Part shown: piece after piece, positions 1,712-15,961 of the stretch
Numbering within the stretch: the first letter of the stretch is position 1
Layout: every line of letters starts with the position of its first letter
Source of the DNA: a virus
Direction: 5' to 3' (one strand)
DNA length: 25,880 nucleotides
IMG/VR virus record: IMGVR_UViG_3300027754_000383
Span: 1-25,880 of that record
The notes under the pieces: generated by a model
What the model was told of the DNA's origin: nothing
Seen by the model: the letters and a program-made list of their open reading frames with translations, nothing else
The model's database searches: none
Position numbers and translations under genes: made by a program

Positions 1712-2845
1712 ATGAACCGCCCCTACCTCTCGTCCTACAAGGACCGCCACGGCACCCTACGGTGGCGCTACAGGCGCAAGGGCCTCGTCGTGGCACTCCA
1801 GGGCCATCCAGGCGAGAAAGCCTTCGAAGCAGCCTATTCTGCCGCTCTGGAGGGCCAGCCAATACGGGCCCAAGTGGTCCGTCATCCGAACCATGCCCTG
1901 CCCCGCACCCTCAAGGCTGCCTGGCGCCTGCATGTTCAGGGCCTGGAATGGACGGCCCTGCGGTCGACCTCCAAGGCTCAGTATATCGCGCGGGCCGAGC
2001 GGTTCCTGGACATGCAGGTCGCGCCGCCCCATCCGACCACCTACGCCGACGTGCCAGTGGCCGACCTCAAGCGCCGGCACATCAAGGACTTGCTGGCCTC
2101 GATGGCCGATCGCCCACACGCCGGTTCCGACGTGCTGGTGACGCTGCGCAAAATGATCGTGGTCGCGCTCGACCAAGAATGGATCCTGCACGATCCGACC
2201 CACCGGCTGCGCTACGCGCCCAAGATCGACGGCCACCGCGCCTGGACCGATGCCGAGCGGGCGGAGTTCGAGGCGCACTTCCCGCTCGGCACGATGCAGC
2301 GGACCATCTATGCCCTCGCCCTCTATACCGGCCAGCGCCGCGGCGACCTGGTGCGAATCAGGTGGAGCGACTTCACCGGCACCAAAGGCAGCCAGCAACT
2401 CGCCCTCACCCAGCAAAAGACCGGAAAGCGCCTGCGCTTGCCCGTGCTTCCCCATCTGCGCGCGGTCCTCGAGGCCACGGCACGGCGGGGCGACACGGTG
2501 CTCGCCCTCGAGGATGGCAGCGCGCGATCGGCCGAGGGCCTAACCAACGACTGGCGGCGCTGGACCGAGCGCGCCGGACTCAAGGGCACCAGCATTCATG
2601 GCCTCCGCAAGACGTTGGGCAAGCTGCTGGCCGAGGAAGGCGCCACCACGCGCGAATTGATGGACGCGCTGGGCCACGATGCCATCGCGCACGCCGAGCT
2701 TTATTCGCGGGAAGCGGCCCAGGAGACCATGGCAAAATCGGCATTCAACAAGGTCAGCAATCGGCTTCGGCCTCGCCTCAAGGTTGTCGGTGGCGAACCT
2801 ATTGGCGAACCTTTGTCTCCCCTTAGGACCAAGCCGTTGAAATGA
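1712..2845 (+). CDS. int: phage integrase, tyrosine recombinase
   Basis: Encodes 377 residues, full length for the family. It catalyses site-specific recombination between the phage and host attachment sites. An N-terminal arm-binding-like part (residues 1-60; LSSYKDRHGTLRWRYR) is followed by a SAM-like core-binding domain (about 65-155) and the catalytic domain (about 175-345). The catalytic set is complete: R209 in TGQRRGDL, K236 in QQKTGK, H296-x-x-R299 in IHGLRK, H322 in LGHD, and the nucleophile Y331 in AELYSRE. The tail carries GEPIGEP, encoded by two direct repeats of TGGCGAACCT. It follows the excisionase-like gene closely. The 367-bp gap downstream probably contains the attachment site. 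Confidence 0.95.
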   Translation: MNRPYLSSYKDRHGTLRWRYRRKGLVVALQGHPGEKAFEAAYSAALEGQPIRAQVVRHPNHALPRTLKAAWRLHVQGLEWTALRSTSKAQYIARAERFLDMQVAPPHPTTYADVPVADLKRRHIKDLLASMADRPHAGSDVLVTLRKMIVVALDQEWILHDPTHRLRYAPKIDGHRAWTDAERAEFEAHFPLGTMQRTIYALALYTGQRRGDLVRIRWSDFTGTKGSQQLALTQQKTGKRLRLPVLPHLRAVLEATARRGDTVLALEDGSARSAEGLTNDWRRWTERAGLKGTSIHGLRKTLGKLLAEEGATTRELMDALGHDAIAHAELYSREAAQETMAKSAFNKVSNRLRPRLKVVGGEPIGEPLSPLRTKPLK

Positions 2846-4758: not shown

Positions 4759-5053
4759 TGGCGTTCACCCTGGCGCGAAACTGCTGATTGCTGGCGTGGA
4801 TGGCGGCCACGTCGGCGTTGAGCCGATCGAGGCCGGCAAGCACGCTGGCCTCAAAGGCCCGCCGCTTGTCCTCAAGCTCAAGCCATGTGGCGTTGGCGTC
4901 GGTGGCGATTTGGAGCTTTTGATTGGCGAGCTCGGCCTCCGCTTCAGTGCGGCCGAGATACTGCCAGGCACCCCAGGCCGCGACGCCCGCGAGCAGCAGC
5001 AGCGACCAATTGCGCCGGATGAAACCGAGCACCGGCAAGGCAGCCGCAAGCAT
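4631..5053 (-). CDS. Rz: Rz-like inner-membrane spanin
   Basis: Encodes 140 residues from the ATG at 5053, which overlaps the endolysin stop as TGATG; a GTG at 5056 is the alternative. One transmembrane helix lies at about residues 15-33 (NWSLLLLAGVAAWGAW). A long periplasmic helical region follows (RTEAEAELANQKLQ... to about residue 105), suited to the coiled coil of Rz. The C-terminus is Pro/Arg-rich. Together with the embedded lipoprotein gene it forms a two-component spanin that disrupts the outer membrane after the endolysin has cut the wall. Confidence 0.8.
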   Translation of the reverse strand: MLAAALPVLGFIRRNWSLLLLAGVAAWGAWQYLGRTEAEAELANQKLQIATDANATWLELEDKRRAFEASVLAGLDRLNADVAAIHASNQQFRARVNANANSNRPLDPAELDALGLLARFNSDPAGGRPVRPAVAPPRVR

Positions 5054-5481
5054 CACTCAAGCCCGTGCCGCGTGCCGGCGCCGTCGATGGTGAGCACCAT
5101 GCGGCGCGGCTGCGGCGACCAGGCGATGTGTACCCACGCGCGGAACTCGTGGATAAGCTGGTCGAAAACGATGTCGCTTTGGGCGATCTCGCGGGCAACC
5201 TCAAGGGGCGAGCCGAAGGCGGGGCAAGAGAAGTCGGCGGCGCAGCCCAGCATGTGGGCGCTGTTGGCGGCACCGCCCACGGCGCGGTTGACCAGTGGCG
5301 CGCGATAGCCGCTCGACACCAGGATCGGCTTGCCGAGAAGCGCGCGGACTTTTTCAAGCAATTGAGCCGTGCGGCGGAGCGCGTCCACCATCTCGGGCGA
5401 TGGCGTGTTGTCGATGCCCAGGCGAGCGGCGGTCTGCGAAGCGCAAAGTTCCGCTAAGGTGAAATGATCGCTAAGTCGCAT
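5053..5481 (-). CDS. endolysin, M15-family peptidase
   Basis: Encodes 142 residues, the usual length of single-domain M15A enzymes. Zinc-site residues can be seen: H76 and D83 in SAHMLGCAADF and H118 in VHIAW, with the family motif SSGYR at 56-60. These are D-Ala-D-Ala-type carboxypeptidases or endopeptidases; phage members cut peptidoglycan cross-links during lysis. There is no signal peptide, so release depends on a holin. It starts 11 nt inside the upstream membrane-protein gene, with GAGG before the ATG, and its stop overlaps the Rz start. Confidence 0.9.
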   Translation of the reverse strand: MRLSDHFTLAELCASQTAARLGIDNTPSPEMVDALRRTAQLLEKVRALLGKPILVSSGYRAPLVNRAVGGAANSAHMLGCAADFSCPAFGSPLEVAREIAQSDIVFDQLIHEFRAWVHIAWSPQPRRMVLTIDGAGTRHGLE

Positions 5482-13917: not shown

Positions 13918-14735
13918 TTACTTTTTCGACCGCGACCGAGCCGCAGAGGCTTTGGCTTCGTCGGCGGCGCGGCGCACTTCGATCTCGACGTGGAAGTCGT
14001 CAATGCGCGCCACGATGGTAACGAAATCCTCGAGGCCCTCGCCTTGATGGCCGAGGCGCAGACCCTCGCGGCGGATCGCTTCCAGCGGCACCGGCCTTGG
14101 AAGCGAGAGGCCGCCCGCCATGCCCATCGAAATGGACTCGTGCGGCCGATCGCGTGCAAGAGTGAGGAAGGCCGACCAGTACAGCGCGGCATCGCTCGTT
14201 AGGCTCGGGCGGGATAGCAGGCGGTCAACGGCCTCTTCGTCGCCCTTGTCCGCGCGATCCGTCCAGCCGCGAAGCTGGCCGGCGTTGTCGCCATCCCACC
14301 TAATCAGTTTTTTGCGGCTTCGACCGTGGCTTCGATGCGAGCGCCGCGGTAGTTTTTCGATTCGTAAACCACGCCATCGACAATGGCATAGGCATCGTCG
14401 GCGGCCATCAGGAAGGCCGCACACGCCTCGGGCGAAAACGGAATTTGGACGCCCTTGCTTTTGACGCCAGACCACCCGATCACCAGGCACTGCGAGTAAA
14501 TCGTCGCAAGGTACTTTCGCACCCGCTCGCTCGGTGCGCGGGCATTGCGGAGCCTGTTGAGCTCGGCCGAAATCTCGTCGGAACGGTTCCGCCATCGCGG
14601 GTTGCCATCGGACGCGGCCAGCACCGTAAAGGTGATGCCGCCGGGCAAGCCCAGCTCCGTGCCCTTCTCGCCTTCGATCTCGCGATTGCGCTGCATCGGC
14701 GCGATGTTGTCGAATTCATATTCTGCTTTTGACAT
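13918..14735 (-). CDS. tail assembly chaperone, -1 frameshift fusion (gpGT-like)
   Basis: A -1 slip at 14307-14313 joins the 143-residue chaperone to a downstream frame of 129 residues (LIRWDGDNAG... ending RSRSKK, stop at 13918). The fused product has 272 residues. The downstream frame has coding character (EEAVDRLLSRPSL, DAALYWSAFLTLARDRP) and no convincing start of its own near the join; earlier codons in that frame are a shadow of the chaperone gene. In lambda the equivalent gpGT binds tape measure and tube protein during tail assembly. The gene order chaperone, fusion, tape measure is conserved here. Confidence 0.8.
14304..14735 (-). CDS. tail assembly chaperone (gpG-like, unshifted product)
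   Basis: Encodes 143 residues. The ATG at 14735 follows GGAGGT at 4 nt, which fixes the start; an upstream extension would run through a hairpin. The product (KAEYEFDNIAPMQR, then LAASDGNPRWRNRSDEI and VRKYLATIYSQCLVIGWSGV) is of the type found before tape measure genes in siphoviruses. It is thought to keep tape measure soluble while the tube polymerises. Translation ends at TGA right after A AAA AAC, so most ribosomes yield this short form and a fraction the fusion. Confidence 0.8.
   Translation of the reverse strand: MSKAEYEFDNIAPMQRNREIEGEKGTELGLPGGITFTVLAASDGNPRWRNRSDEISAELNRLRNARAPSERVRKYLATIYSQCLVIGWSGVKSKGVQIPFSPEACAAFLMAADDAYAIVDGVVYESKNYRGARIEATVEAAKN
14307..14313 (-). promoter_or_regulatory. 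programmed -1 ribosomal frameshift site (A AAA AAC)
   Basis: Read on the - strand, the chaperone ends gcA AAA AAC TGA. This is the canonical X XXY YYZ heptamer in the correct phase, immediately before the stop. After a one-base slip, reading continues CTG ATT AGG TGG into the downstream frame. Small GC hairpins begin 14 nt (GGCG-ACAA-CGCC) and about 29 nt (CCAGC-N6-GCTGG) downstream and might act as stimulators, but neither is strong. Confidence 0.88.
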
Positions 14736-14787: not shown

Positions 14788-14822
14788 GGTTCGCGGGCCA
14801 TTACTGGCGCCGCTAGGACGGC

Positions 14823-14993
14823 CTAAGCCGCCTTGGCGAGCCCCTTGGCCACCCAGTCGGCGGCGGACTGGCCCTGGGGAATGTCGGCAGCTTCCACGAC
14901 CATGCCCTTGCTGAAGCTGGCCTTGCGCTCGGGCTTGTCGTCGCCCTGGCCGACATACACGTGGAAGTTAGCCTCGATGAGATACTTGCCCAT
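14823..14993 (-). CDS. small phage protein between tail tube and chaperone
   Basis: Encodes 56 residues from the ATG at 14993, preferred because AGAGGAG lies about 9 nt upstream. The alternative ATG at 15038 overlaps the tube stop as TGATG and would add 15 residues that look like non-coding leader. The product (MGKYLIEANFHVYVGQGDD, then KGMVVEAADIPQG and WVAKGLAKAA) is a compact beta-rich domain. No family is recognised. Its place between tube and chaperone suggests a tail role. Confidence 0.6.
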   Translation of the reverse strand: MGKYLIEANFHVYVGQGDDKPERKASFSKGMVVEAADIPQGQSAADWVAKGLAKAA

Positions 14994-15037
14994 GGCTGCG
15001 GGCTCCTCTGCAATGGGGTTGAGATTACGCGGCGGCA

Positions 15038-15961
15038 TCAGGCCACCAGGCGAGTGATCTTGATGGCGGCAGTGTCGCTGGCGAAGTAGCGCGCCATGAA
15101 GTTGAGCGTGACCATGTGTTCGCCGGTTGCGCCGGGATCGTCGATGTCCGGGTTGAACACGTCACAATTGCCCAGGACGATCGTGTCCTTAAACAGCGTC
15201 GTGGCGCCGATGGTGAGCGAGAGCGTCTGCGCCGTCTGCCGCGTCATGAATGTTGAATAGTCGGCTGCGGCAGAGAAGTAGAGCTGGACGGAGCCGCTGA
15301 CATCGAACAGGCCAAGGCCGATGCCGTAGGGCGCATTGGAGCCCCAAGCATATTGTTCTTGCAGACTGTTGGTGATGGTCATGTTGAGGCCCATGACCTT
15401 GGGCGAGCTGACGCCGAAAAGGTTGTTGACCACGATATCGGCCGGCGTGGACGGATCGTAGCCGGGCGTCGGCGCAGCATAGGTTGCGCTGGCGATCGCG
15501 GCGGTGGCCGATGTCTCGCCAAGCGCGCGGATGCCGAAGCTCAGTGTGCCGGGCTCACCGTTGCGGAAACCGATCGAACACGAATCGACCATGCAGCCGG
15601 CCAGACGGCGGTAGGGGTCAGTAGCGCCGCCCTCGTACTTTTCCTCCAGCGTGAAAAACTTAGCCGTGCTGGCGTTCTTCAGGACGTTTGACGCCCAGGT
15701 GCCCATCAGCGTGGACTCCCAGAGCACGTCCGTCGCCGCGTCGCGGACGTAAGGCAGCTCAATCGTCTTCGGAAAGCTGTTGAGCCCCGTGGTCATGTTC
15801 GCCGCCATGCGGTCGGCGCGGCGCTCCGGCGAGCGCGTTGCCGGCCGGCTCGGCGAGCCGCTGACGCGAATGTCGCGGGTGAGCAGGAAAGCCGGCGTGG
15901 CCGGCGTCGTGCCCTGGGTGACCTCCGCGATGATCGCGGTCTGTTTGTTGGCACTGTCCAT
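15038..15961 (-). CDS. major tail tube protein
   Basis: Encodes 307 residues. Position directly before the small tail gene and the chaperone pair, preceded by the tail-terminator gene, is that of the tube protein in siphoviruses. The sequence is beta-rich and Thr/Ser/Ala-rich (QTAIIAEVTQGTTPATPAF, LFDVSGSVQLYFSA, LSLTIGATTLFK), as in tube subunits that stack into hexameric rings. AGAGGAG lies 8 nt before the ATG, a strong site in keeping with high expression. A terminator-like hairpin precedes the gene. The C-terminal part (GATGEHMVTLNFMARYF) is typical of this family as I know it. Confidence 0.8.
   Translation of the reverse strand: MDSANKQTAIIAEVTQGTTPATPAFLLTRDIRVSGSPSRPATRSPERRADRMAANMTTGLNSFPKTIELPYVRDAATDVLWESTLMGTWASNVLKNASTAKFFTLEEKYEGGATDPYRRLAGCMVDSCSIGFRNGEPGTLSFGIRALGETSATAAIASATYAAPTPGYDPSTPADIVVNNLFGVSSPKVMGLNMTITNSLQEQYAWGSNAPYGIGLGLFDVSGSVQLYFSAAADYSTFMTRQTAQTLSLTIGATTLFKDTIVLGNCDVFNPDIDDPGATGEHMVTLNFMARYFASDTAAIKITRLVA

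Follow-up and report, generated by a model that had tools for sequence, protein, structure and literature searches.

The locus investigated in this study is part of a single virus record of 25,880 bases with a G+C content of 63% (IMGVR_UViG_3300027754_000383, positions 1 to 25,880), whose entire length is referred to here as the window. Its minus strand contains the gene of a tail assembly chaperone that ends in a slippery heptamer next to its stop codon and that is continued by an open -1 frame (Table 1), resembling the arrangement of gpG and gpGT in phage lambda. The 3' end of the zero-frame gene reads GCC GCA AAA AAC TGA, thus placing an X_XXY_YYZ heptamer, in phase with the zero frame, close to the end of the first gene. 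Past this site, the -1 frame continues as L-I-R-W-D for 129 codons beyond the zero-frame end up to a TAA that is located 10 bases ahead of the likely ATG of the tape measure gene. The zero-frame open reading frame (ORF) already opens upstream at 14801, and its real start is most likely the ATG listed in Table 1, where the encoded sequence MSKAEYEF is common to relatives. The original prediction, which had described a canonical heptamer in the right phase directly against a TGA and a coding -1 frame of 129 codons extending to just before the tape measure gene, has in these points and in all of its coordinates proven to be correct.

Table 1. Features of the chaperone locus and of the adjacent tail genes.
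Feature	Position	Strand	Basis
Zero-frame gene, gpG-like tail assembly chaperone, 143 amino acids	14304..14735	-	ORF; ATG 14735, TGA 14306-14304
Slippery heptamer A_AAA_AAC, X_XXY_YYZ phase	14307..14313	-	Sequence; substitutes in relatives are all shift heptamers
Zero-frame TGA abutting the heptamer	14304..14306	-	Sequence
T-like -1 extension, 129 codons and TAA (13920-13918)	13918..14307	-	Open frame, phrog_3817, PF23812, purifying selection
Tail tube protein	15038..15961	-	PF18906 Phage_tube_2 (E-value 6.4e-30); phrog_290 (E-value 5.3e-41)
Probable tape measure protein, 1192 amino acids	10329..13907	-	Position, length, weak match to tape measure family phrog_33360 (E-value 0.09)

Related junctions were collected in alignment scans of viral contigs, based on alignments of the first and of the second part, and of genome contigs, where a narrow alignment retrieved none and a wider one seven loci. 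The resulting set of 38 related contigs consists of 31 viral contigs and 7 contigs from bacterial genome assemblies, mostly of Reyranella and other alphaproteobacteria, and together with the window it comprises 39 junctions, 32 of which are distinct at 450 nucleotides. A shift-prone heptamer occupies the equivalent junction in all 38 relatives, and both frames are retained in every contig of sufficient length, with one of them (L043) ending early. AAAAAAC is found in 29 relatives (30 junctions including the window), whereas nine (L037, L025-L027, L059-L060, L028-L029 and L075) contain either GGGGGAA (five), GGGAAAA (three) or GGGAAAC (one). The latter two conform to XXXYYYZ, and GGGGGAA is a recurrent slip motif termed 'fivetwo', for which about a thousand motif instances were identified by PRFect in SEA-PHAGES data that mostly consist of tail chaperone genes (PMC10885494). 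The original prediction had named relatives that lack the heptamer but preserve both frames as evidence against a frameshift. Such relatives exist in the literal sense, since nine do not contain AAAAAAC, but in each of them a different shift heptamer takes the place of the missing one, which supports a frameshift instead of refuting it.

The occurrence of such heptamers in every relative indicates that their presence at the junction is not due to chance. This conservation is a stronger argument against random occurrence than the estimates obtained from the codon usage of the window, where a random four-codon stretch would contain any in-phase XXXYYYZ heptamer with a chance of 0.8% and where about 1.6e-5 occurrences of A_AAA_AAC immediately ahead of a stop would be expected per gene. 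The 12 minus-strand genes of the window contain only seven in-phase XXXYYYZ heptamers in 5,122 codons. It is the nucleotides of the heptamer, and not the encoded amino acids alone, that by these comparisons are under selection. The codon preceding AAA AAC is GCA in 23 cases, ATA, GTA and ACA in two cases each and CTA in one, thus covering five amino acids with a wobble A throughout, in counts that stem from related contigs and do not reflect independent events, with several lineages being represented. In the genes of the window, GCA accounts for 11% of alanine, ATA for 5% of isoleucine, GTA for 6% of valine and CTA for 4% of leucine codons, and AAA for only 27% of the codons for lysine.

A change in the constrained reading frame is apparent at the same position. 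In frame-checked pairs, the rate of non-synonymous substitutions (dN) is lower than that of synonymous substitutions (dS) in frame 0 up to the site and in frame -1 from there on, with dN exceeding dS in the other frames. Between the window and L021, dN/dS values amount to 0.089/0.668 in the zero frame before the site and to 0.168/0.679 in the -1 frame behind it. Purifying selection, as judged from these substitutions, thus changes frame at the heptamer, and the downstream -1 frame is both open and selected, as would be the case if it were fused to the first product.

The assignment of both parts as tail assembly chaperones relies on their location between the genes of the tail tube and the probable tape measure protein and on their sequence homology to known families, which together bear out the conserved tail chaperone arrangement that had originally been proposed. 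The first part matches the tail assembly chaperone family phrog_313 (E-value 4e-8) and the second part phrog_3817, a family of tail chaperonins that is detected in the second parts of 17 of 17 members. PF23812 (Phage_TAC_18) matches the second part in 16 of the 17 members, with the score of the window's own protein being below the gathering score. Both parts are also matched by phrog_8233, another tail assembly chaperone family with a profile length of 271, where the first part aligns to positions 11-132 and the second to positions 166-251; the family thus spans both. Relatives of the zero-frame protein are 43-98% identical, and the structure predicted for the first part (with a mean predicted local distance difference test score of 74.5) matches tail assembly chaperones in BFVD, with the pre-tape measure chaperone of the Caulobacter phage CcrColossus as best match (E-value 4.7e-6) and a tail assembly chaperone of the Acinetobacter phage Loki also among the matches. 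Searches of the PDB with models of both parts did not reveal a significant fold match, NCBIfam contained no match for either part, and no match was obtained with the zero-frame protein in a tblastn search against the named phages. The host of the window phage and the function of the pair in its tail are both assigned as putative.

Based on these properties, we are highly confident that a programmed -1 frameshift at A_AAA_AAC leads to the synthesis of a G-like chaperone and of a G-T fusion. Most ribosomes would terminate at the TGA to release the G-like chaperone, whereas a small fraction would slip back by one base on the heptamer, with tRNA-Lys and tRNA-Asn re-pairing on AAA AAA, and read 129 more codons to generate a fusion protein of about 272 amino acids. 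By analogy to gpG and gpGT of lambda, the role of the G part would be to coat the tape measure protein, and that of the T part to recruit the tail tube protein. We infer the slip itself, its efficiency and the way in which both products share these tasks from the described features.

Alternatively, the second frame could be a separate gene that is translated from its own start, with ribosomes either initiating independently or being coupled to the upstream stop. Potential starts are indeed present, as the -1 frame of the window contains an ATG (14595) with GTGs downstream of it, several relatives carry a GTG at +32, and the second part of the Pseudomonas phage JM2 is annotated as a separate coding sequence. 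However, the window has no start codon between the junction and +179, where the first one lies within the conserved domain. Ahead of the heptamer, dN exceeds dS in the -1 frame of all eight pairs tested, and relatives contain stops that interrupt this frame. In ten contigs, the stretch of the -1 frame that begins with its opening and extends 50 nucleotides past the zero-frame stop contains no ATG, GTG or TTG that could start the domain, in L023-L027 there is no start codon until about +176, well within the conserved domain, and in L077 the -1 frame opens merely eight codons ahead of the zero-frame stop. With respect to the distribution of start codons, the second frame is in several relatives reachable only by a shift, and an independent start was rejected in light of the ten relatives without start codons near the junction, which leaves a separate gene highly improbable.

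Even less probable appears a slippage of RNA polymerase on the run of six adenines, by which a subset of the messenger RNAs would carry the change in frame. Such a run is found at the junction of the window and of 29 of the 38 relatives, but six adenines are short for this process, the nine relatives with GGGGGAA, GGGAAAA or GGGAAAC contain no homopolymer longer than five, and other homopolymer runs of at least six bases in the window are not associated with a comparable arrangement. The break could finally reflect a sequencing error, to which homopolymer runs are prone, or the decay of a gene that once consisted of a single frame. This possibility, which we regard as practically negligible, is refuted by the comparative data, as the break recurs, with different heptamers, in 38 further contigs that derive from many samples, and as both of its sides are under purifying selection.

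Certain properties of the junction weigh against a programmed frameshift. In the window and its relatives, the 50 or 75 nucleotides downstream of the site do not contain a conserved or unusually stable stem-loop, with z-scores mostly ranging from -1.7 to +1.2 in calculations that did not model pseudoknots. A candidate stem-loop in the window (z -1.7) was dropped, as it is not conserved in relatives. Equally, there is no stimulator resembling a Shine-Dalgarno sequence in these sequences, where the best match covers 3-5 of 6 positions at inconsistent locations, and the site does not correspond to a stimulated -1 signal of the dnaX or IS3 type. Moreover, A_AAA_AAC is in Escherichia coli much less shift-prone than A_AAA_AAG (PMC5009743). 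Still, the missing stimulator and the weak heptamer do not exclude the proposed mechanism, since some frameshifts of tailed phages seem to operate at low efficiency without stimulators, with the products in lambda showing a ratio near 30:1 (PMC5009743). The weaker A_AAA_AAC suits such a low product ratio, and frameshifting at the same heptamer without an established stimulator has been proven in an insertion sequence (PMC4066793).

In 34 of the 39 junctions, the zero-frame stop directly follows the heptamer, and in the remaining five it is located one codon later. Behind AAAAAAC, the stop is set by the next codon of the -1 frame, where CTG generates TGA and CTA generates TAA. Among the 25 distinct junctions of this type, this codon is CTG in 20, CTA in four and CTC in one, although CTC and CTT together account for about half of the CTN codons in the window. 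In the two lineages with GGGGGAA and an abutting stop, the corresponding -1 codon is the rare ATA. The prevalence of stop-making codons (24 of 25) and of ATA at the junction suggests that an immediate stop seems to be preferred. The original prediction that termination and frameshift compete directly is thus only partly supported, by the placement of the stop, and a kinetic competition with slippage is presumed. A more far-reaching proposal, which we consider rather unlikely, would view the shift site as a replaceable module (A_AAA_AAC, G_GGG_GAA, G_GGA_AAA or G_GGA_AAC) that functions without stimulatory structure, and the abutting stop as a feature selected to tune the product ratio, even though the -1 frame then has to accommodate a rare CTA or ATA codon.

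The structural genes of the window are located on the minus strand in an HK97-like order, where terminase, portal, head protease, major capsid protein, connectors and tail terminator are followed by the tail tube, a gene of 71 residues, the chaperone pair and the probable tape measure gene. The short ORF between tail tube and chaperone (14823-15038, minus strand) has no match in Pfam or NCBIfam and no significant match in PHROG. The 1192-residue protein lacks a tape measure match in Pfam and shows only one match of chance level in NCBIfam, and its assignment is thus deduced from gene order. If it is the tape measure, it would predict a tail of about 180 nm at 0.15 nm per residue, a value implied by the 1,964 residues and the 295 nm tail of the Caulobacter phage phiCbK (PMC3556154). 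A 142-residue ORF (5053-5481, minus strand) weakly resembles the peptidoglycan L,D-endopeptidase MepK, in a match far below cutoff, and possibly encodes the endolysin of the phage. An integrase (1712-2845, plus strand; phrog_1, E-value 7.7e-28) suggests that the phage is probably temperate.

The described organization has counterparts in previously annotated phages. In the Rhodobacter phages RcRudolph and RcSimone-Hastad, tail tube, chaperone and a joined -1 fusion coding sequence follow in the same order as in the window, with the heptamer placed against the stop and with second parts that are 35-38% identical to the one described here. Both differ in their heptamer (GGGAAAC) and stop (TAG), and RcRudolph contains an additional minor tail gene ahead of the tape measure. 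The Pseudomonas phages JM2 and YuA carry GGGAAAC 39 nucleotides before the stop, and their annotation either splits or omits the second part. The RefSeq record of YuA (L049, NC_010116.1, 2454-2743) contains no gene for the second part although the -1 frame is open, and in JM2 a separate gene starts 24 nucleotides after the end of the first, which justifies the initial warning that gene callers would misplace the start of the second frame or miss it. The heptamer of lambda, GGGAAAG, is unlike the one of the window. The likeness to gpG and gpGT concerns their shared architecture and presumed role (PMC5009743). In phiCbK, the pre-tape-measure chaperone gp93/gp94 also has an extended -1 form, and AAAAAAC is found in phiCbK and its relatives and GGGAAAC in CcrColossus (PMC3556154), although these are very large phages of distant sequence. 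In Loki, AAAAAAC in gp12/gp13 is located directly at the stop codon (PMC5313236), in a phage of a different host class whose frameshift is likewise only predicted.

Collectively, the window is a further example of the classic and well-known frameshift of phage tail chaperones, where AAAAAAC sites have already been published, and it leaves the picture of how phages make these proteins unchanged. What it adds to the known systems is a natural series, in which many related phages share one junction that combines any of four interchangeable heptamers with an adjacent stop that is almost fixed. This series would be useful for the correct annotation of second frames and for determining slip efficiency in organisms other than E. 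coli.
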